7,764 nt of DNA from Acidobacteriota bacterium (GTDB lineage Bacteria; Acidobacteriota; Vicinamibacteria; Vicinamibacterales; UBA8438). The notes beneath the pieces were generated by a model. The model worked only from the letters and a program-made list of their open reading frames with translations, searched no databases and was not told where the DNA came from. Made by a program: the position numbers and the translations under genes. The stretch is taken from contig WTGR01000930.1 in assembly GCA_011523485.1 (NCBI GenBank), positions 1 through 7,764 of the forward strand, read 5' to 3'. Below, one piece after another: positions 1-7,764 of the stretch. How positions within the stretch are numbered: the stretch's first letter is position 1; each line of letters opens with the position of its first letter.

Positions 1-910
1 CTTTCTCGAAGAAGGGGTTGGCGTCGCCGTAGCCCTCCCGGATACGGCTCCATTCCTGATCATCGAGGAGCCCGACCGATTGTTCCACGCCGCGTTCTTC
101 GTCCAGTCCCTTGTCGAGCCTGTAGCCACCACGATCGGTCAGCACGTATCGGGCGTGAAAATCGTGCGGCTCGCCTTCACGCATGCGCCATCGACAGACG
201 CGTATCGAAGAGAGTTCCCCGGAGATCATCGCCGGCAGGTGAAGTGCACAGTGCTTCCGAAACTCGTCGGCGTTCCACTTCCTGTCCGTTTCCAGCGTGT
301 GGATCTCTGCAGCCCGCGCGTGGCCGAGGGGACGCGCCGCCAGATTGAGGCACGCCTCGATGACGGGACGCCACCTGTGCTGCGAGAGATCGAGATGTGG
401 ATCGATCAGCAGAAGCTCGCGGCTGTTCAGGACCAGGGTCTCGATGTGCGTGACGAGTTCTTTCGGCTGGCGTAGCACCTGCTGCTCACGCCGGACATCG
501 AACCTGACGTGCGATTCGTCGATGTCCTCTTCCAGCACGACGTCATGATGGCTCGTCGGATTGCGCGTCGAGAGGATGGCATGGAATCTTCCGGCTCCAC
601 CCTGATGAGCCGTGGCGTTTCTGATCCAACATTCTTCCGGCGGCGTGATCGAACCATCGTAGCGGGCACGCCCGCGCGTCGAGACGAGCTTGTCCTCGGA
701 CTCCTGGATCTTCTCGTATATCCGCTCGAATTCACGCTCGCCGCAGCTCGGGTTCCTGTTGCAGGCCTGGAAGATCATCTTCTTCCAATCCTTGAGTGAC
801 GGATAGACGGCGATCGCCCGGCCATGCCGGAAACCCATCAGGTTGAGCGTGATCCGGCACTTGTCCCAAGTGATGAGCACATCGGGCTCGATGGCGTATA
901 CGTAGAGCAT
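1..910 (-). CDS. PLD-like protein B (HARY variant), 3' end beyond window
   Basis: The reading frame starts at the ATG at 910 and stays open for 303 codons to base 2, so the C-terminus lies outside the window. I translated it by hand. Residues 169-174 read IDPHLD, and residues 251-270 carry FHARYV followed by GGYRLDKGLD. This pair of motifs resembles the PLD-like domain found at the C-terminus of MIT-domain proteins (an HDR motif, then GW-x-GRGLD), and matches the same two motifs in the paralogue at 3061-4005. The Asp of HDR is Ala here. The N-terminus begins with YAIEPDV, like YAITPDV in the paralogue, but the ~150 residues before the PLD-like part are divergent and unrecognised. The start overlaps the ATPase-B stop by one base and has GGAG at 922-919, 8 nt upstream. 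It may be a nuclease, a phosphodiesterase or a non-catalytic binding domain; the sequence does not decide. Confidence 0.85.
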   Translation of the reverse strand, partial: MLYVYAIEPDVLITWDKCRITLNLMGFRHGRAIAVYPSLKDWKKMIFQACNRNPSCGEREFERIYEKIQESEDKLVSTRGRARYDGSITPPEECWIRNATAHQGGAGRFHAILSTRNPTSHHDVVLEEDIDESHVRFDVRREQQVLRQPKELVTHIETLVLNSRELLLIDPHLDLSQHRWRPVIEACLNLAARPLGHARAAEIHTLETDRKWNADEFRKHCALHLPAMISGELSSIRVCRWRMREGEPHDFHARYVLTDRGGYRLDKGLDEERGVEQSVGLLDDQEWSRIREGYGDANPFFEK

Positions 911-922
911 CAGAACAACTCC
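908..922 (-). promoter_or_regulatory. TGATG stop/start overlap with Shine-Dalgarno, ATPase-B to PLD-B
   Basis: The ATPase-B stop (912-910) shares one base with the PLD-B ATG (910-908). A GGAG sits at 922-919 inside the ATPase-B coding region, 8 nt before the ATG. This suits translational coupling and supports 910 as the start. Confidence 0.75.
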
Positions 923-3030
923 GCCGCCCGCTCACGAAAGAAACCTTGCGGCCAGCGGTCGATGAATTCGCCGGTTTCGTCGATCCGGAGCCGGGTGGCC
1001 TGAATCTCGCCGGCGACCTGTTCAAGGAAGACTACGGATACTTGATCCGGTCTCAGTGCCGGTTTGCCTTCGGGCAACTCGCCGCTGTGGGTTTCCTCGA
1101 TTCGTCGCAGCAGGCGCAGCATCAGGTGCTCGCTGTGGTTCTCGAGCAGGAATATGCGGCCGTCGTCGACCGGCTGCGCGAAGAGGTCGCCGAGCTCCAC
1201 CTGCATTGCAGGATGAAGGTGGAGCTCCGGTTGCTCGATGGCGGTGATTCCGGGCCGGTGTGGATCCAGCGCGGCAGCGACCACAGGGAGGATCTGCGAG
1301 ATGCCGACGCCGATGTCGGTTGTCCGCACCGGCAGCTCCGATCCGGCGGTCACAATTTGAAGGTTGGATTGAAGCGGCGCTTCGGCAATAGCATGAACGA
1401 GATCCTTGGCTGCCGCTCCACCCTTCTCGATTCCATCGACGGCTTCGATGATGGCAGTGAGGAGCCGGTAGATCGCGCGGTTGGATTCCAGGACCTTCTT
1501 GCGGTTGGATTCCACTGTTTGTTCCGTGTCAGAGTCATTCTTCCCGGAAGAGTCCACGTCGACGGGCTCGTTCTCGCCACCGCTGCGTTCCTTGATGCGA
1601 GCCTTGACGTCATCGGGATCACATCCGAAAAGACCTGCCATTTTCAAGGCCTGCTTCTTGGCCCAGTAGTCAGGATCGACGTCGCCATTCTCGTTTCTGA
1701 ATTCGGCTGGAAGCTGGTTGAGGGAGTGAATCTCAGTCACCCCGGGCGCCGTTGCGGGAAGCTCCACTATCGAGTTCCTATACAGCTTGTACCCGGTATC
1801 GAGTCGGTCATCGCGCTCCAGCCAGTCATTGACATCGTCGATCAGGCCCCGGCGGGTACGCGGATCCGGATCGCGGTGCAGAAGCAGATTCCACGCCGCG
1901 GAGCCGTCGCTCCAGGTTCCGCGATCGTGCAAGCCGGGTTCTGCGGTGGTGCGTGGGCGCAACTTGCGCACCGGACCGACGTATCTGAGTGCGCCAAGTT
2001 CGTTGCACAGAGTGCGTCCGATACCGACCACGAAGCCGGATACCAGGGTTTCGAAATCCGGGACACTGAATGGACCGGCACCGTAGAGCGGGTTCTTTTC
2101 GTCGTCCTCCAGGTCTTCGCGGTTCAAGGCAAGTGGCCGGCTCCAGTCCGGCAACATGTTCGGCGCGTACGCCGTGACGCGATGTAGCTGCCAGTCGTTG
2201 GTCTTCGGGTCCGAAGCCTCGCTCACATGCGCGGTGGTCGCTTCAGCCGCCTCCAAGGGCACGGGGCGCAACGGGTCGAACAGCGGATGCGCCCAGTTGA
2301 ATTCCAGGTGGATGCGGTCTTCGAAACTACCGGCCCGGGCAATGCGTCCGAAGAGTATCTCGTTGACGCCCACCTCGTATCCGACAAGCAGTGGCCCTTC
2401 CGGAAACTTGTTCCAGGCGATGGCGAGTTCCACCCATCCCGACCGGACGGATTCGGTTCTGGCCTGGGAGTCGACCCATTCGGCGAATTCGTCGGCGTGC
2501 TCAGGTTCAACCCGGTCGTGATGGACCATTCTCTCCACCAGTGGTCCGGGTACCTGCCAGTTCTCAAGGCTCAACTCGAAACGCAGTCTGACGTCGCGCT
2601 CCAGGTCGTGCGCGTGGACCAGGTTGCGAAATCCGCCGAGGTCGATCTGGTCGCCGCCAAGGTGGGTCTTGCCGGCGTCGACGTTGCCGCGGCTGAGGAT
2701 CTCGTGCGCATAGCAGAGTGCGTGCAGAACGGTGCTCTTGCCGGCGCTGTTGCGCCCGAAGAGCAGCGTGATGGGGCGCATCTCGATCCGCGCCGGTCGG
2801 CTGATGCCCTTGAAGTTCTCGATCTCCACGGCGGTGATCAGCGGCGACTTCGACCGATGGACGTCAAGCTCATAAGCTTCCTCCGGTGTAAGGCCCCGGA
2901 AGACGGTGATCGACGACGACTCCCCTTGATGCATGGAGCCTCGGTTCGGGGTGGCCCCGGCCGTTTCGGCGGGTTGGGGAACTGAATGGGTCTCGGCGGC
3001 GCGCTCGTGTTCATCTGACATATCTGACAT
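910..3030 (-). CDS. SMC/ABC-type ATPase B with DUF3696-like C-terminus
   Basis: This 706-residue protein is an ATPase of the AAA15/AAA_21 (OLD- and SMC-like) class. After a low-complexity acidic N-terminus of about 60 residues comes ITAVEIENFKG, then the Walker A GRNSAGKST at 92-100. The middle contains LRYVGPVR and GLIDDVNDWL blocks shared with ATPase A, plus a short acidic Ser/Asp-rich stretch. The C-terminal half has an IGVGISQILP signature-like motif near 573, Walker B EQPELHLHP at about 599-607, and ENHSEH at 630-635, where related ATPases and ATPase A have ETHSEH. The protein ends with WPQGFF near 693-698, as in DUF3696 tails. The ATG at 3030 is preferred because a GGA lies 7 nt upstream; the frame could open at TTG 3042, or at ATG 3021. 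It probably hydrolyses ATP to gate or load its partner PLD-B (inference). Confidence 0.92.
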   Translation of the reverse strand: MSDMSDEHERAAETHSVPQPAETAGATPNRGSMHQGESSSITVFRGLTPEEAYELDVHRSKSPLITAVEIENFKGISRPARIEMRPITLLFGRNSAGKSTVLHALCYAHEILSRGNVDAGKTHLGGDQIDLGGFRNLVHAHDLERDVRLRFELSLENWQVPGPLVERMVHHDRVEPEHADEFAEWVDSQARTESVRSGWVELAIAWNKFPEGPLLVGYEVGVNEILFGRIARAGSFEDRIHLEFNWAHPLFDPLRPVPLEAAEATTAHVSEASDPKTNDWQLHRVTAYAPNMLPDWSRPLALNREDLEDDEKNPLYGAGPFSVPDFETLVSGFVVGIGRTLCNELGALRYVGPVRKLRPRTTAEPGLHDRGTWSDGSAAWNLLLHRDPDPRTRRGLIDDVNDWLERDDRLDTGYKLYRNSIVELPATAPGVTEIHSLNQLPAEFRNENGDVDPDYWAKKQALKMAGLFGCDPDDVKARIKERSGGENEPVDVDSSGKNDSDTEQTVESNRKKVLESNRAIYRLLTAIIEAVDGIEKGGAAAKDLVHAIAEAPLQSNLQIVTAGSELPVRTTDIGVGISQILPVVAAALDPHRPGITAIEQPELHLHPAMQVELGDLFAQPVDDGRIFLLENHSEHLMLRLLRRIEETHSGELPEGKPALRPDQVSVVFLEQVAGEIQATRLRIDETGEFIDRWPQGFFRERAAELF
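1020..1345 (-). repeat. Paralogous block, copy B: Walker B to switch-loop region
   Basis: The stretch encoding VGISQILP through ENHSEH is still clearly alignable at the DNA level with 4130-4440 in ATPase A, including a shared run at about 1290-1306 (gatctgcgagatgccga). It is coding sequence and marks duplication of the ATPase gene. Confidence 0.7.
2620..2840 (-). repeat. Paralogous block, copy B: P-loop region
   Basis: This stretch encodes ITAVEIENFKG, the Walker A and ALCYAHEIL, and aligns with 6100-6346. Two exact matches stand out: 21 nt (2732-2752 with 6238-6258) and 24 nt (2803-2826 with 6309-6332). Confidence 0.75.
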
Positions 3031-3060
3031 GGTCACATCCAATGTGTCGATGCACGTGTC
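3031..3060 (-). promoter_or_regulatory. 30-nt intercistronic gap with weak Shine-Dalgarno and small hairpin
   Basis: This is the only gap between genes in the window. On the minus strand GGA at 3040-3038 is 7 nt from the ATG at 3030. A 5-bp stem (CACAT at 3046-3042 paired with ATGTG at 3038-3034) has a 3-nt loop that contains most of the GGA. A second 5-bp pairing (3066-3062 with 3052-3048) covers the PLD-A stop. There is no T-tract, so it is not an intrinsic terminator, and I see no promoter consensus. Confidence 0.4.
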
Positions 3061-4005
3061 TCATCGAACCTCGAAGCGCAACTGCAGCTTGTGTGAGCCG
3101 GTGGCGGGATGGAATTCCCGACGAATGTCGTCGCGGTCCTTTCGTCCGAGGCGGTTCCACGTCGTGGTCTGGTTGGCCCTGGTGTCGAAGCCGTTGGACA
3201 GCGAGATCCCGATCAGATTGCTGATCAAGTAGCGATCATGGAAGTCGTCCCAGACGAAGACTTCCGCGAGCAGGCCGGCAGCGCGTAGCCGGAACGCGAG
3301 CTCGTTGCGGAATACGCGCTCGAAGTAGGTGGCGTCGTCGCGCAGGGGGAAACGGCGTCGGGGCCCTGATCCCTCGTAACAGACGCGGTGGACTTCGATC
3401 TTCGGGACCGGTGCTCGCCGTCCGGCACGCGCGAGGAGCGCTCCGAAGTCGCGGTATCTCCGTTTCGCCGGATCCAGGTGCGGATCGATGAAGATGAGCG
3501 AGTTCGAACAGCGGAGCACGGCGTCAAGTTGTGCCTCGTAGTCGTCGCGTGTGCGTTGGAGTCTCACCGACGGGCTTCGTGATGCCCACCACGGGGCGCC
3601 CGCGAGCCGGTCGATCCGCGCAACGGTCGGCTCCCTGCGGTTCACGTCTTTGACCGCCTTGGTTACGATGATACCGCCGGTGAACGGTTGCTTCGAGTGG
3701 GTAGCAAGTGCCTCGGCGCACCAATGCCGGTCCTGACGGGCAAGAGCAGGGAGCTCTGGTTCGTGGCGCACGAGGCGTCCCTGCGTCGCGAGTTCCTTGA
3801 TGAGCTTCGTTCCGCGTGGATGCCACGGACGGGCATCCGTTGCGAAAAGCGCGCCCCACTCGCCGTCGCGAAGATCGCGAACGAGTCCCTCTATCAGCAT
3901 CGCCTCGCGAATCGTCTCGAGGCGGGCTTCGCATTCGCCAGCGGTCGGGTACGAGGTCATGTCGAACACGTCCGGCGTGATGGCGTAGTCGGCAAGGAGC
4001 GGCAT
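3061..4005 (-). CDS. PLD-like protein A (HDRY motif)
   Basis: This 314-residue protein starts at the ATG at 4005, which overlaps the ATPase-A stop by one base and has GGGAG 8 nt upstream. The frame itself extends further upstream into ATPase A, but that part is an out-of-frame shadow. The N-terminal ~150 residues are unrecognised; a basic, helix-rich stretch around 60-90 could be a small winged-helix-like region, but this is weak. Residues 173-179 read IDPHLDP, 255-260 FHDRYL and 265-274 IGISLSNGFD. These resemble the PLD-like fold of MIT-domain C-termini (HDR then GLD), a divergent relative of HKD phosphodiesterases with Arg in place of the catalytic Lys. No signal peptide or membrane segment is visible. 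It is the probable effector or substrate-binding partner of ATPase A (inference). A site-specific nuclease or a non-catalytic lipid- or nucleic-acid-binding protein are both possible. Confidence 0.88.
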   Translation of the reverse strand: MPLLADYAITPDVFDMTSYPTAGECEARLETIREAMLIEGLVRDLRDGEWGALFATDARPWHPRGTKLIKELATQGRLVRHEPELPALARQDRHWCAEALATHSKQPFTGGIIVTKAVKDVNRREPTVARIDRLAGAPWWASRSPSVRLQRTRDDYEAQLDAVLRCSNSLIFIDPHLDPAKRRYRDFGALLARAGRRAPVPKIEVHRVCYEGSGPRRRFPLRDDATYFERVFRNELAFRLRAAGLLAEVFVWDDFHDRYLISNLIGISLSNGFDTRANQTTTWNRLGRKDRDDIRREFHPATGSHKLQLRFEVR

Positions 4006-4018
4006 CAGAAGATCTCCC
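4003..4018 (-). promoter_or_regulatory. TGATG stop/start overlap with Shine-Dalgarno, ATPase-A to PLD-A
   Basis: The ATPase-A stop (4007-4005) shares one base with the PLD-A ATG (4005-4003). GGGAG at 4018-4014 is 8 nt upstream of the ATG, the same spacing as at the ATPase-B/PLD-B junction, and both junctions share TTCTGATG. Confidence 0.75.
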
Positions 4019-6542
4019 GCAGGTCTTCCTCGAAGAAGCCGCCGGGCCAAGCCTCGACCAGCTCTCCGCGCTCGTTGAGCGGCATCTCGCGAATCAAGGT
4101 CTGCTCGCCTTTGGGATCGACCTCCACGAAGTACACGGCGATGTCCTCCGGTCGCACCTTCGGGGCTCCTTGCAAGGCGCCGTCGCACGTCTGCCGCATA
4201 CGCTTCATGAATCGCAGGAGCAGGTGCTCGCTGTGGGTTTCGATCAGGAAGGCGCCACCCTTGTCGATCTGCTGCGCGAACAGATCGCCGAGCTCTACCT
4301 GGAGCCTGGGGTGGAGGTGGAGCTCCGGCTGTTCGATGGCGGTGATCCCGGGACGGTGCGGATCCAGTGCCGCGACAACTACCGGTAGGATCTGCGAGAT
4401 GCCGACGCCAACGTCGGCCGGCCGAACTGGCAGACCCGTTTTCGCGGCGACCAGCTGCAGTTCCCGTTGCGATGAACCGGCGACCAGGGCAGCGGCGAGC
4501 GTGTCGACGTCCGTTGTCGTGAAATGGCGTTGCTGCATTTTCGCGACCAGCGCCGCCAGGCGGGGGTATTCCTTCTGTGCCGGCTCCACGCTGGCGTCAA
4601 GCTCCTCGATGCCGAACGCATGGATTCGCGCTTCGATTCTCTCCGTGTTCACGCCGCTGCCGTAGGCGTCGAGCTTCTTCTTGATAGCCTCCCTGAGTCG
4701 TGCTTGGCTCTTCACCAACGTGGTCGTGTTCTCCTTGCGCAGTTCATCTCGACATTCGTCGTCCTGGACTTTCAGCTTGCGAATCTCGTCACGGTGTTTC
4801 CTGCGTGCATCCGTTCTCGCGACGATCCGGGCCAAGCTGCGGGTGTCTTCCCGGTCCCACGCCGGTGGCGTGTGAGTCTCGTCCTCGTCGGGAGCCTTGA
4901 TCCGCGCCGCCAGCGCGTCGACGGTGCTCAGTTCGCGCAGGCACCCCAGGCGCCTCAGGTACCGGTCCACCATCTCGATGCCCCGGCCGGCCTCCTCGAC
5001 TTCCCGGTCGAAGTAGTCGGCACCCGCGACCTCGGTGAACTGCTCGCGAATCTCGCGACACGTTCGCGTCGCACGGTCTATCTCTTCCGTGACGCCGGCA
5101 ACGATCTCGTCGGCTTGGTGGCGTGCCCATCGATCGAGATCGGCCGCTTCCGTGTCGTTTCCGAACTGCTCGCGCAGACGGTGATACTCCCGCAACGCCG
5201 GTACGAGTTGCGCATCCTCTTCCTGGATTGTCACGAGGGATCGGGCGTGGAGGGCGTAGCCGGTGTCGAGTCGGTCCTTGTCTGCCAGCCAGTTGTTCAC
5301 GTCGTCGATCAGGCCGCGACCAGGACTGTCGTGGAGGCGCGCCCAGGCGGCGGACCCGTCGGCCCAGGACGCGAGTCGGTAAGACTGCGATTCGGACGCT
5401 GCGGGCCGGCCGTGGATGAAATCCGTGGCGAATGCGGCCATTTGGCGCTCCGGATCGGGTTTCGGCGATGCGGTTCGCGTTCGCGGATGCAGGTCGCGCA
5501 CCGGACCGATGTATCGGAGGCGCGCCAGATCGTCGCGGAGAGACTGTCCGATGCCGGTGAACAGTGCCGACACCCGCGCGCGGAACACGGCGCTTGCGTC
5601 TTCATCACTTCCGGTATCGTCCAACTCGAGTTCGTCCAGGACGAGCGGCTCGCTCCAACGAGGCAGAGCGGAGGTCAACCCGAGCACTTCAACGCGCGAC
5701 AGCCGCTGGACGTCGTTCGTCGATTGGTAAGTCGTGCGCGCACGGTCGGGGGGCTTGTTCACTTGTGGCGCGTCGTCCGTGCGCTCCGCTTCGCGCGTGA
5801 CCGCGTCGGCATGGCTGTCCAAGAGCAGCGGGTGTTCCGGATTGAACTTCAGCACCACGCCCGCCTGATGATGTGTCTGGATACATCCGACGGGCATTTC
5901 GTTGACGCCAACCTCGTAGCTCACGAGAAGCGGTTGTGCGTCCCGCTGTTCGACTTGCAGTTCAACCCATCCGGAGGTGACCTGCAACACGAGCTCATCG
6001 ATAGCCTCCTTCGCCTCGAATTCGTAGGAGGGCGCGAGTCTCTCCGCCAGCGCGGGCGGATTCCAGCCTTCGAGATTCAGATCGAACCGAAGCCGGACGG
6101 TTCGTGCCGGATCGTGCGCGTGCACGAAACTATCGAATCCGCCCAGGTCGATGCGGTCACCGCCGAGTTCGGTGGTGTGCGCATCGACGTCGCCGTAGCT
6201 CAGGATTTCGTGCGCGTAGCAAAGTGCATGCAGCACCGTGCTCTTGCCGGCGCTGTTGTTCCCGAACAGCAGGGTGACCGGCCGCAGGTCGACGCGCATC
6301 GGACGGCCGATGCCCTTGAAGTTCTCGATCTCGACGGCGGTGATCAACCGGCTTCCGGCGGCGCTCCGCTTCCGTTCGGATAGCGCGCGGAAGTCCGGCC
6401 AGCCGGCGTCGGATGGGGGCGCGTCGCCCGCCGTTTCAATCGGCTCCGTCGACGAATCAGCCTCGATGCGATGATCGTCTTCATCCGGCATGGTCTTGTC
6501 CGTCATCTCGTTCCAACGAGTAAGCAACGAGCGTGCCATCAT
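4005..6542 (-). CDS. SMC/ABC-type ATPase A with coiled-coil insert and DUF3696-like C-terminus
   Basis: This 845-residue protein (counted from the ATG at 6542) belongs to the same AAA15-type ATPase class as ATPase B. An acidic N-terminus precedes ITAVEIENFKG and the Walker A GNNSAGKST at 94-102. Shared middle blocks are LRYIGPVR and GLIDDVNNWL. Unlike ATPase B it then has a long charged stretch, roughly residues 470-690, rich in Glu, Arg and Lys and probably coiled coil, as in SMC/Rad50-like proteins. VGVGISQILP follows near 711, Walker B IEQPELHLHP at 736-745, ETHSEH at 768-773, and a WPGGFFEED tail at 832-840 typical of DUF3696. The frame is open further upstream inside the regulator gene. 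The ATG at 6542 overlaps the regulator stop (TGATG) with AGGG 10 nt upstream. ATGs at 6539, 6506 (GGA 5 nt upstream) and 6491 are alternatives; 6506 gives an N-terminus more like ATPase B. Confidence 0.92.
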   Translation of the reverse strand: MMARSLLTRWNEMTDKTMPDEDDHRIEADSSTEPIETAGDAPPSDAGWPDFRALSERKRSAAGSRLITAVEIENFKGIGRPMRVDLRPVTLLFGNNSAGKSTVLHALCYAHEILSYGDVDAHTTELGGDRIDLGGFDSFVHAHDPARTVRLRFDLNLEGWNPPALAERLAPSYEFEAKEAIDELVLQVTSGWVELQVEQRDAQPLLVSYEVGVNEMPVGCIQTHHQAGVVLKFNPEHPLLLDSHADAVTREAERTDDAPQVNKPPDRARTTYQSTNDVQRLSRVEVLGLTSALPRWSEPLVLDELELDDTGSDEDASAVFRARVSALFTGIGQSLRDDLARLRYIGPVRDLHPRTRTASPKPDPERQMAAFATDFIHGRPAASESQSYRLASWADGSAAWARLHDSPGRGLIDDVNNWLADKDRLDTGYALHARSLVTIQEEDAQLVPALREYHRLREQFGNDTEAADLDRWARHQADEIVAGVTEEIDRATRTCREIREQFTEVAGADYFDREVEEAGRGIEMVDRYLRRLGCLRELSTVDALAARIKAPDEDETHTPPAWDREDTRSLARIVARTDARRKHRDEIRKLKVQDDECRDELRKENTTTLVKSQARLREAIKKKLDAYGSGVNTERIEARIHAFGIEELDASVEPAQKEYPRLAALVAKMQQRHFTTTDVDTLAAALVAGSSQRELQLVAAKTGLPVRPADVGVGISQILPVVVAALDPHRPGITAIEQPELHLHPRLQVELGDLFAQQIDKGGAFLIETHSEHLLLRFMKRMRQTCDGALQGAPKVRPEDIAVYFVEVDPKGEQTLIREMPLNERGELVEAWPGGFFEEDLREIF
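4130..4440 (-). repeat. Paralogous block, copy A: Walker B to switch-loop region
   Basis: This coding block pairs with 1020-1345 in ATPase B. Both copies keep the same order of motifs (signature-like GVGISQILP, EQPELHLHP, and the His-containing loop) with no visible length change between them. Confidence 0.7.
6100..6346 (-). repeat. Paralogous block, copy A: P-loop region
   Basis: This block pairs with 2620-2840 in ATPase B. Similarity falls away sharply on the N-terminal side of the block, where the two acidic leaders are unrelated in sequence. Confidence 0.75.
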
Positions 6543-6556
6543 CAGCGGCGCGCCCT
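6540..6556 (-). promoter_or_regulatory. TGATG stop/start overlap, regulator to ATPase A
   Basis: The regulator stop (6544-6542) shares one base with the ATG at 6542-6540, and a second ATG follows at 6539-6537. AGGG lies at 6556-6553, 10 nt before the first ATG. This ties the regulator to the operon it probably controls. Confidence 0.6.
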
Positions 6557-7764
6557 GGCCGGCAGCGTCACATCGTACCGCTTCATCCAGTTCGTGAGTG
6601 TCTGGTAGCTCGGCAGGCCGACGAGCTCGGCCGCCCGGGTCTTGTTGCCGTCCGCCTCGGCCAGCGCGCGTTCGAGGTAGTGGCGGGCGAGATCGGCAAC
6701 CAGGGTCGGGAGCTCCAGCCCGCTGCCCAGCGGCCGGCCGAGCAGATCGCCCGATTCGTCCTGAACCGTCTTGAGCAGCTCTTCGCGGACATCGTCCGCG
6801 GTGACCGACGCTCCGGGCGCCCACAGCGCCAGCCGGTCGATCGTCGCCTGGAGTTCCCGCGCGTTCCCGGGCCACGGATGCCGCAACAGAAGGTTCCTTG
6901 CCGCCGGAGAAAGGGCCTTCTGTTCGACGCCGGGCTGATCGGCGAACTTGCGGTTCGCGGCGGCGAGAAAGTGGTTGATGAGCGGCGTGAGGTCGCCCTG
7001 GCGCTCGCGGAGCGGCGGGAGCCGGATGACGCCGGTCGCGAGCCGGTAGTAGAGGTCCTCCCGGAACCGGCCGGCCGCCACCTCGGTCCGCAGGTCGCGG
7101 TTCGTGGCGGCGATGATCCGGACATCGATGGCAATCGACCTGTCCGATCCGAGCCGCCGGACGGTCTTCTCCTGCAGCGCGCGGAGGAGCTTGACCTGCG
7201 CGGGCAGCGGCAGTTCGCCAATCTCGTCCAGGAAGAGGGTGCCGCCGCCGGCGGCCTCGAAGTGGCCGGCGTGGGGACGCACGGCGCCGGAGAACGCGCC
7301 GCGGGCATGGCCGAAGAGCAGCGATTCGACGAGTCCCTCCGGCAGCGCGCCGCAGTTGACCTCTTCGAACGGTCCGCCGCGGCGGCGGCTCTCGGCATGA
7401 ATGGCCCGTGCGAACAGCTCCTTGCCGGTGCCGGACTCACCCTCGATTAGCACCGTGACGTCGTGTGGGGCGATGCGCCGGGCGCGCGTCCGGGCGCGCT
7501 CCAGCGCCGGGCTGCGGCCGATGATCCGGTCGAACTCGGGCGACTCGGGCGGCAGGCCGGCGGTCAGGCGGGTCAGCTTGTCGTCGGTCTCGCGCAGCAG
7601 CGCGGGCACGTACTCCGCTGCGATGTCGAACGGCACGGATACGGTTCGGACGCCGGTCTTCTCATGGGACTGGATCAGCTCGGCGGGGTAGCGTGTCTTG
7701 GCCAACAGAACCCATACCGCCTGCATGGCCGGCGTGCCGGGACTGACGTGAATGGAGAGATCCG
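6542..7764 (-). CDS. RtcR-like sigma-54 activator (CARF-like, AAA+, Fis HTH), 5' end beyond window
   Basis: The frame enters from the right edge. An ATG at 7726 is internal, because the 12 codons before it read on in frame as DLSIHVSPGTPA and continue into MQAVWVLLAKTRY and LIQS. That run matches the end of the RtcR sensor domain (IHITTGTH, WFLLAEARY, LIQS), a CARF-family fold. The AAA+ domain follows, with Walker A GESGTGKE, a GAFSGA loop (normally GAFTGA), Walker B GGTLFLDEIGE, and ATNRDLR and FREDLYYRL motifs. A GNARELQ motif marks the end of the AAA+ region. A Fis-type helix-turn-helix (GNKTRAAELVGL, then TLTNWMKRYDV) ends the protein. In the family, sensor release lets the AAA+ ring remodel sigma-54 RNA polymerase. 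Its stop overlaps the ATPase-A start, so it is probably co-transcribed with the system it regulates. No symbol is given because RtcR proper controls the rtcBA RNA-repair genes, which are absent here. Confidence 0.93.
   Translation of the reverse strand, partial: DLSIHVSPGTPAMQAVWVLLAKTRYPAELIQSHEKTGVRTVSVPFDIAAEYVPALLRETDDKLTRLTAGLPPESPEFDRIIGRSPALERARTRARRIAPHDVTVLIEGESGTGKELFARAIHAESRRRGGPFEEVNCGALPEGLVESLLFGHARGAFSGAVRPHAGHFEAAGGGTLFLDEIGELPLPAQVKLLRALQEKTVRRLGSDRSIAIDVRIIAATNRDLRTEVAAGRFREDLYYRLATGVIRLPPLRERQGDLTPLINHFLAAANRKFADQPGVEQKALSPAARNLLLRHPWPGNARELQATIDRLALWAPGASVTADDVREELLKTVQDESGDLLGRPLGSGLELPTLVADLARHYLERALAEADGNKTRAAELVGLPSYQTLTNWMKRYDVTLPARARR

Follow-up and report, generated by a model that had tools for sequence, protein, structure and literature searches.

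The stretch of DNA considered here, referred to in its entirety as the window, comprises 7,764 nucleotides of contig WTGR01000930.1 from an Acidobacteriota bacterium (GenBank assembly GCA_011523485.1). Its minus strand carries five closely spaced genes that encode, in order, an RtcR-type regulator, ATPase-A, PLD-A, ATPase-B and PLD-B, where PLD denotes the phospholipase D-like partner of the preceding ATPase (Table 1). This layout of a regulator followed on one strand by two ATPase/PLD pairs had been read from the letters alone in the initial annotation of this DNA, and the gene set confirms it. The window cuts both ends of the operon, so that the 5' end of the regulator gene and the 3' end of the PLD-B gene are missing. 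At both ATPase/PLD junctions the stop codon of the ATPase and the start codon of the PLD have one base in common (TGATG), and the start of ATPase-A (ATG 6491-6489; an alternative ATG lies at 6506-6504) was set by comparison with the related loci L002 and L011. Among the genes inside the window there is no hsdR, hsdM or hsdS, no McrB-type GTPase or McrC gene and no rtcA/rtcB-like (ligase or cyclase) gene, and searches of the window for sigma-70 promoters, terminators, tRNAs and Rfam families gave no match or nothing beyond chance.

The regulator combines CARF, NtrC-type AAA+ and helix-turn-helix (HTH) parts, as expected of a CARF-sigma-54 regulator, with Pfam matches to Sigma54_activat (5.1e-68) and HTH_8 (9.5e-7). 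Its PADLOC match is RtcR_PspF2 (PDLC01995), with 559.6 bits over model positions 94-480 of 481, the first ~93 positions falling outside the window; RtcR proper scores only 206.7 on the same protein. The regulator is 92% identical to the RtcR of locus L010.

Promoters were scored against the sigma-54 -24/-12 consensus, and the highest-scoring site was taken within a span reaching from 60 bases ahead of the rtcR stop codon to 350 bases beyond it. A site matching at least 10 of 12 positions stands behind rtcR in 31 of 34 sequences overall, compared with a chance level of 2.2% among 5283 random 410-base stretches drawn from the same loci. The window and 27 loci have RtcR on the same strand, and among these 28 sequences the top score is 12 in 8, 11 in 14, 10 in 4 and 8 in 2, the last two being L004 and L068, both with a partial RtcR match; six added non-duplicate loci (L122, L123, L124, L146, L147 and L149) score 12, 11, 12, 10, 7 and 12, respectively. 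Many of these loci are related, so the counts are not independent events, but a chance origin of the site was rejected. Within the window alone, the number of sites with up to two mismatches carries no information (1 found versus 1.17 expected). The loci span Acidobacteriota, Pseudomonadota, Planctomycetota, Myxococcota and Gemmatimonadota. On the upstream side of rtcR, none of 17 loci has a site of at least 10/12, so that the genes behind rtcR, rather than rtcR itself, appear to be RtcR-controlled. Between the window's sigma-54 site and the start of ATPase-A, inspection by eye also reveals a palindrome, CTCGTT-GG-AACGAG (6507-6520), that is absent from the equivalent place in L010, L011 and L002.

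Table 1. Features of the window, with coordinates on the forward numbering
Feature	Position	Strand	Remarks
RtcR-type regulator	6542..7762	-	CARF end, sigma-54-interacting AAA+, Fis-type HTH; 5' end outside window
Sigma-54 (-24/-12) promoter	6523..6538	-	TGGCACG-N4-TTGCT; 0 mismatches; 3 bases past rtcR stop codon
ATPase-A	4005..6491	-	ABC ATPase, AriA/OLD type, DUF3696 tail
ATPase-A head, N-terminal half	6078..6347	-	Walker A GNNSAGKS
ATPase-A arm	4413..6077	-	555 residues, fast-evolving
ATPase-A head, C-terminal half	4197..4412	-	GVGISQ signature, IEQPELHLHP Walker B, ETHSEH switch
ATPase-A tail (DUF3696 region)	4008..4196	-	Similar to tails of other subfamily-A pairs
PLD-A	3061..4005	-	Candidate effector, subfamily A, 314 aa
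ATPase-B	910..3030	-	Start ATG 3030-3028 picked by inspection
ATPase-B head, N-terminal half	2572..2841	-	78% identity to ATPase-A counterpart
ATPase-B arm	1315..2571	-	33% identity to ATPase-A arm, 394 aligned columns
ATPase-B head, C-terminal half	1099..1314	-	78% identity to ATPase-A counterpart
ATPase-B tail	913..1098	-	34% identity to ATPase-A tail
PLD-B	2..910	-	Candidate effector, subfamily B; 303 residues within window
PLD-B N-domain	494..910	-	Residues 1-139, possibly PIN-like
PLD-B C-domain	2..490	-	Residues 141-303; PLD/MITD1-like fold; invariant D170-P171, H252-x-R254

Genomic settings of the ATPase/PLD pair

Related loci came from three sources: a PLD-A pattern search of a set with one genome per species (16 loci), plasmids, and profile searches of genomes. 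From 51 loci scanned, L065 (a duplicate), L079 and L111 (no PLD) were dropped to leave 48, to which 9 further non-duplicate loci (L120, L122-L125 and L145-L148) were added for a total of 57. The plasmid loci come from 4 of the 5 plasmid records that contain P0337, a proteobacterial PLD relative, the second Methylocella record being left out. An ATPase lies directly upstream of the PLD in 52 of the 57 loci (45/48 and 7/9), the 45 including five in which the ATPase match is partial or broken (L012, L013, L015, L068 and L105); the three others of the 48 are a contig edge (L070) and PLD fragments (L085 and L110), and L145 and L125 among the added loci are likewise a contig edge and a PLD fragment.

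The commonest classified setting of the pair, which the initial annotation did not foresee, is inside a type I restriction-modification (R-M) operon, usually behind RtcR. In 29 of the 57 loci (22/48 and 7/9) the pair is preceded by genes of the hsd set. The 22 are L001, L003, L006, L007, L012-L014, L016, L021-L023, L069, L071-L073, L075, L078, L080, L081, L083 (with RtcR divergent), L084 and L103, in which the hsd set is not always full since stretches or contigs end. Among the added loci, the entire order RtcR-HsdR-HsdM-HsdS-ATPase-PLD with unbroken hsd genes is present in L122 (where the ATPase is split), L123, L124 and L146; L147 has the same order with a split hsdM, and L120 and L148 are cut loci with hsd genes upstream of the pair. 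RtcR and the pair without hsd genes, as in the window, characterize 14 of the 57 loci (L002, L004, L005, L008, L010, L011, L015, L066, L068, L104 and L106-L109), with RtcR present only in pieces in L004, L005 and L068. For the remaining 12 of the 48, L009, L024 and L082 are taken up below, L067 and L074 show neither RtcR nor hsd genes in 2.9 kb upstream, and the rest are contig edges or fragments. Since hsd genes stand upstream in 29 of 57 loci, the window represents a restriction-free branch of a wider association with type I systems. Regulator, ATPase and PLD-like protein thus recur together across several phyla, a recurrence that the initial annotation had proposed to look for, and single-module versions exist (L066 and the type I loci).

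Several loci show variations on these settings. Cargo lies between hsdS and the ATPase in L013 (5845-7865; Hypoth_Ymh and a predicted pPIWI-associating nuclease) and in L014 (6803-8026; a YhcG nuclease), and a gap of ~2-3 kb occupies that place in L071, L072, L123 and L124. In L003 (2477-5251) HsdR carries a Peptidase S24-like segment near its N-terminus. The pair of the Deinococcus plasmid locus L024, without RtcR or hsd genes, lies beside DUF2357, AAA ATPase and protein phosphatase 2C genes.

The PLD-A profile is positive in 4 of 396 genomes of the phylum of L004. With the A4 profile, positives number 11/193 in Vicinamibacteria (the class of L004), 13/398 in Pseudomonadota, 6/188 in Myxococcota, 9/64 in Gemmatimonadota and 8/246 in Planctomycetota, tallies that include already known positives plus weak or fragmentary matches and whose group names derive from the named locus at the center. 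In the 193-genome set an ATPase alignment, with matches counted at E<=1e-40 only, hits exactly the 11 PLD-positive genomes. The one ATPase match without a PLD (contig C88 of genome G545; locus L149) proves to be the first part of an ATPase gene that follows RtcR and a 12/12 sigma-54 site and is truncated by the contig end; the same genome has, at the end of another, unjoined contig, the rest of an ATPase together with a PLD (L064).

The defense-island setting that the initial annotation asked about holds in part. In hsd loci, some of them on plasmids, the neighbors of the pair are defense genes; 10 neighboring open reading frames (ORFs) of restriction-free arrays include no defense family and gave one Pfam match (polyphosphate kinase 2), a weak negative because the ORF choice was naive in GC-rich DNA. 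These observations bear on the alternative of an operon for RNA or DNA repair or stress, in which the RtcR-like activator would answer broken RNA and the pairs would process the cell's own damaged nucleic acid, as rtcBA does. Three points fit this alternative: the RtcR type of the regulator, the binding of cyclic-phosphate-ended tRNA fragments by RtcR (PMC7790460, in excerpt) and the lack of defense families among the 10 ORFs. Against this stand the want of any rtcA/rtcB-like gene in the window, the hsd genes (plasmids included), the patchy distribution just given and an ATPase arm that is far more variable than the heads and tail, and we regard repair as rather improbable.

Arrays of unlike pairs and the apparent mosaic structure of their ATPases

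Restriction-free arrays fall into two groups of an RtcR tree of 23 rows (in which L012 is a long branch), one including the window and one in Gemmatimonadota. The restriction-free label needs 2 changes on this tree; well-supported branches force only 1, and the arrays may thus have a single origin. A PLD tree of 56 rows, built by a quick method with support from the Shimodaira-Hasegawa approximate likelihood ratio test (SH-aLRT) only, places members with and without hsd genes in both subfamilies A and B. The subfamily labels are our own, defined by single linkage at 40% identity, a rule that puts L103 with the second pairs of L002 and L011 as "C" where the PLD tree does not group them. Under these labels the arrays read A-B (window and L008), B-A (L004 and L015, the second pair of L015 being broken), A-C (L002 and L011) and A-D (L106-L108), and L104 holds three unlike pairs. 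The PLDs of one array are only 16-22% identical to each other (11 comparisons) versus 38-94% to their respective relatives in other loci, so each array gathers pairs that are unlike one another, and the same figures led us to reject tandem duplication of one pair. PLD remnants lie beside other pairs in L010 (11202-11435) and L109 (3509-5850), as if pairs were lost as well as gained.

These arrays also bear on the possibility that the pair is a restriction accessory, working only with a type I complex, for example on cut DNA or as a guard against anti-restriction proteins, in which case restriction-free arrays would be decaying remnants. The prevalence of the type I setting (29/57) favors such a role, as do the broken frames of L015, the RtcR pieces of L005 and L068 and the PLD remnants of L010 and L109. 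Decay alone would not, however, produce arrays that mix subfamilies, restriction-free loci occupy two clades of the RtcR tree, and frames and promoters are intact in the window, L002, L008, L011 and L107, all of which makes this account unlikely in our view.

The initial annotation placed both ATPases in an OLD/SMC-like class, and the family matches agree in showing them to be AriA/OLD-like. ATPase-A matches AAA_15 (4.2e-19), AAA_21 (6.8e-17) and, at its C-terminus, DUF3696 (7e-5); ATPase-B matches AAA_15 (2.4e-17), AAA_21 and, again at the C-terminus, DUF3696 (1.8e-4), and Pfam finds no Toprim on either, DUF3696 occupying the C-terminus instead. Their best PADLOC matches are NsnB, PDC-M55A and HEC-03B, the best stretch covering the C-terminal head and tail, with AriA models ranked below these (E 6.5e-21 and 7e-19). 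All 54 ATPases compared share the two glycines and the glutamine of the signature, the Walker B glutamate and the E-(T/N/S)-H-S-E-H switch. At the position of the Walker A lysine, 51 have K and 1 has R, and 2 partial sequences lack it.

Around this conserved core the ATPases look like mosaics: the heads are specific to a lineage, the arm changes fast and cuts across PLD subfamilies, and the tail in most cases goes with its PLD. Restriction-free A heads are 76% (N-terminal half) and 75% (C-terminal half) identical to those of B or C pairs in other loci and only 51% and 61% identical to those of hsd-linked A pairs. Tails show the reverse, with 69-77% identity between A and A and 34-37% between A and its own B or C array mate. 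Arms average 35% identity even among restriction-free A pairs, though the RtcRs of the window and L010 are 92% identical. In a test on 43 of 51 modules (8 single-member subfamilies were excluded), the nearest module in another locus shares the PLD subfamily in 40/43 cases for the tail, 33/43 for the C-terminal head, 29/42 for the N-terminal head and 26/43 for the arm; with the two array lineages only, the corresponding figures are 23/25, 18/25, 14/24 and 10/25. Distances of ATPases and PLDs correlate overall (Mantel r 0.61, 51 modules, 0/2000 permutations).

Three cases run opposite to the usual order, in that the arm is more alike than the tail. The first (A) pair of L011 and the B pair of L064 have arms 74% identical over 458 residues and PLDs at 29%; for L103 and L009 (A) the figures are 62% and 24%, and for the second (A) pair of L004 and the first (B) pair of L015, 63% and 27%. 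The strongest break in each lies in the C-terminal head or tail (0/300 permutations each, treating columns as exchangeable). A same-subfamily control, the window and L010, follows the usual order (46% before the break, 67% after it). The nearest arm to that of the window's ATPase-A, from the second pair of L002 (40% over 581), also goes with a PLD of another subfamily, and the weaker break there falls 19 residues into the PLD. The tail, since it mostly travels with its PLD, is the likely docking site for it, and the arm, from its pattern of change, behaves as we infer a recognition part would.

PLD-A and PLD-B have no match at E<=1 in Pfam, PADLOC, NCBIfam or PHROGs, and comparison with PADLOC, as the initial annotation suggested, thus leaves the PLD without a model of its own. 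At E<=0.001 PLD-A has 917 homologues among 7996 candidates scored and PLD-B has 108, among them a complete relative of 329 residues that is 95% identical (P0121). An AlphaFold2 model of PLD-B has a predicted local distance difference test (pLDDT) score of 92.9, whereas that of PLD-A, from a shallow alignment, reached 57.5 and was not used. By structure comparison the C-domain of PLD-B has a PLD/MITD1-like fold, within the PLD superfamily, and the N-domain is possibly PIN-like. The catalytic motif HxKxxxxD is altered: H-x-R occurs in 102/102 PLD relatives, and position +7 is D in 39/102. Pfam MIT_C matches 7 of the 102 weakly at E<=1 (best 0.008). A membrane-active or lipid-binding, MITD1-like toxin in an addiction module of the toxin-antitoxin type would account for such matches, but these matches are weak, Z is just as high for PLD enzymes and for the nuclease SauUSI as for the MITD1-type match, and an inducible sigma-54 promoter does not fit; we think an addiction module very unlikely.

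Seven PADLOC models match the 102 relatives weakly: BrxL, DrmD (4 models), DrmC and Csm2. BrxL (PDLC02508) meets the PLD-like C-domain in 16/102 (best E 2.4e-5; in P0332 at model positions 533-683 of 698), which we read as a shared fold only, and DrmC matches one relative at E 0.044. Of the window's two PLDs, PLD-A was the one searched for in plasmids, phage records and viral contigs, and it has no match among plasmids.

A proposed function and its relation to known systems

Taken together, the resemblance of the ATPase to AriA, the nuclease-type fold of its partner, the link to restriction and an inducer of the damage type make a PARIS-like second line of defense the simplest reading, and we consider it about an even chance that the operon is a sigma-54-inducible, PARIS-like sensor/effector system against phages with two ATPase/effector pairs. 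The regulator, possibly sensing the ligand of RtcR, would induce both pairs through sigma-54; cyclic-phosphate tRNA fragments have been proposed as such a signal for RtcR-linked restriction superoperons by the CoCoNuT authors (PMC11090510, in excerpt). The ABC ATPase heads of each pair would form an NTP-dependent core, the fast-changing arm would recognize a phage feature, and the tail would hold the cognate PLD-type effector, in a way comparable to AriA and AriB in PARIS (PMC11455837), until release or activation allows it to cut nucleic acid. The pair itself is a widespread companion of type I restriction operons, and the window's lineage, which lacks the restriction genes, would have collected pairs of different kinds.

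Several points weigh against this defense reading. L009, L024 and L082 look like lone pairs because more than 8 kb upstream of each holds neither RtcR nor hsd genes, and in L023, on a Methylocella plasmid, a WYL-domain gene replaces RtcR before hsdR-hsdM-hsdS-ATPase-PLD (SIR2 and DUF87 genes come after the PLD there); the regulator is therefore not universal. L147, whose RtcR match is full-length, is a real exception in that its best sigma-54 site scores 7/12. Pairs 2 and 3 of L104, with tails 61% and PLDs 22% identical, are contrary to a strict tail-PLD link. The residue following the Walker B acid, which we take to be the expected site of the catalytic glutamate, is Q in 48/54 ATPases (IEQPE) and E in 6/54, a seemingly natural replacement by which hydrolysis may be slow or absent. 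The HKD lysine has become arginine and its aspartate is not conserved, which makes binding rather than cutting a possible role of the PLD domain; its fold match MITD1 is a non-catalytic membrane binder, and the PLD N-domain has no invariant acidic residue. PIN and PLD nucleases produce 3'-OH ends and therefore would not feed the RtcR signal. The 10 ORFs beside restriction-free arrays count here as well. Searches of 50,697 phage records gave no match to PLD-A, and no relative of it was confirmed in viral contigs; phage or viral carriage of PLD-A was rejected on these negatives.

More tentatively, and with the balance somewhat against it, the operon could be a damage-inducible, combinatorial immune array in which one CARF/sigma-54 switch governs stacked unlike pairs and arms are recombined against exchangeable tail-plus-effector cassettes, such that sensing and killing would evolve separately, with arms under phage pressure. 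The defense reading, if true, would add an unmodeled PLD-type effector family to ABC-ATPase defense and explain genes present at the 3' ends of many restriction operons under RtcR control. It would also offer a natural experiment on recombining sensors and effectors, in which the arm/tail split predicts the part that sets the trigger and the part that binds the effector, a prediction directly testable by swaps between lineages.

RtcR-like regulators near R-M genes were reported in 2014 (PMC4012209, in excerpt), and pairs of ABC ATPase and nuclease are known as a kind. Not found in the open-license literature searched (titles and abstract starts) were the ATPase/PLD pair, for which an earlier description is possible, its position downstream of type I genes under RtcR control, the arrays without restriction genes and the mosaic of arms and tails; a search on the name NsnB returned unrelated papers only. 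As for the PADLOC candidates NsnB, PDC-M55A and HEC-03B, compared here by models and not by system definitions, they are the best PADLOC matches of both window ATPases, but none of the 102 PLD relatives matches models so named. MITD1 and MIT_C share the fold of the PLD-B C-domain, and the MITD1 C-domain has an H-x-R type motif; the sequence match is weak, and the window proteins are bacterial and ATPase-coupled, with an extra N-domain. OLD nucleases carry a C-terminal TOPRIM domain on the ATPase, in place of which the window ATPases have DUF3696. The RtcR-rtcBA RNA repair operon has the same regulator architecture of CARF, sigma-54 AAA+ and HTH, but the window lacks ligase and cyclase, and its regulator is nearer to RtcR_PspF2 than to RtcR proper. 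OLD-type ABC ATPases linked to nuclease genes occur as dyads in BREX loci, where the nucleases are TOPRIM or HNH (PMC12839542, in excerpt) rather than PLD-type partners behind RtcR. RtcR-like CARF activators precede R-M genes in the associations of 2014 and in CoCoNuT superoperons (excerpts of PMC4012209 and PMC11090510), whereas hsd and mcr genes are both missing from the window; the excerpted CoCoNuT text does not describe the ATPase/PLD pair, and its Figure 8 legend labels include a PLD domain with no detail. PARIS is likewise a two-gene pair of ABC ATPase and nuclease-like effector linked to restriction biology, but its effector AriB is a TOPRIM protein, whereas the effector here has a PLD fold and no AriB match, and the window operon differs further in its RtcR/sigma-54 promoter, its array of unlike pairs and its DUF3696 tails.

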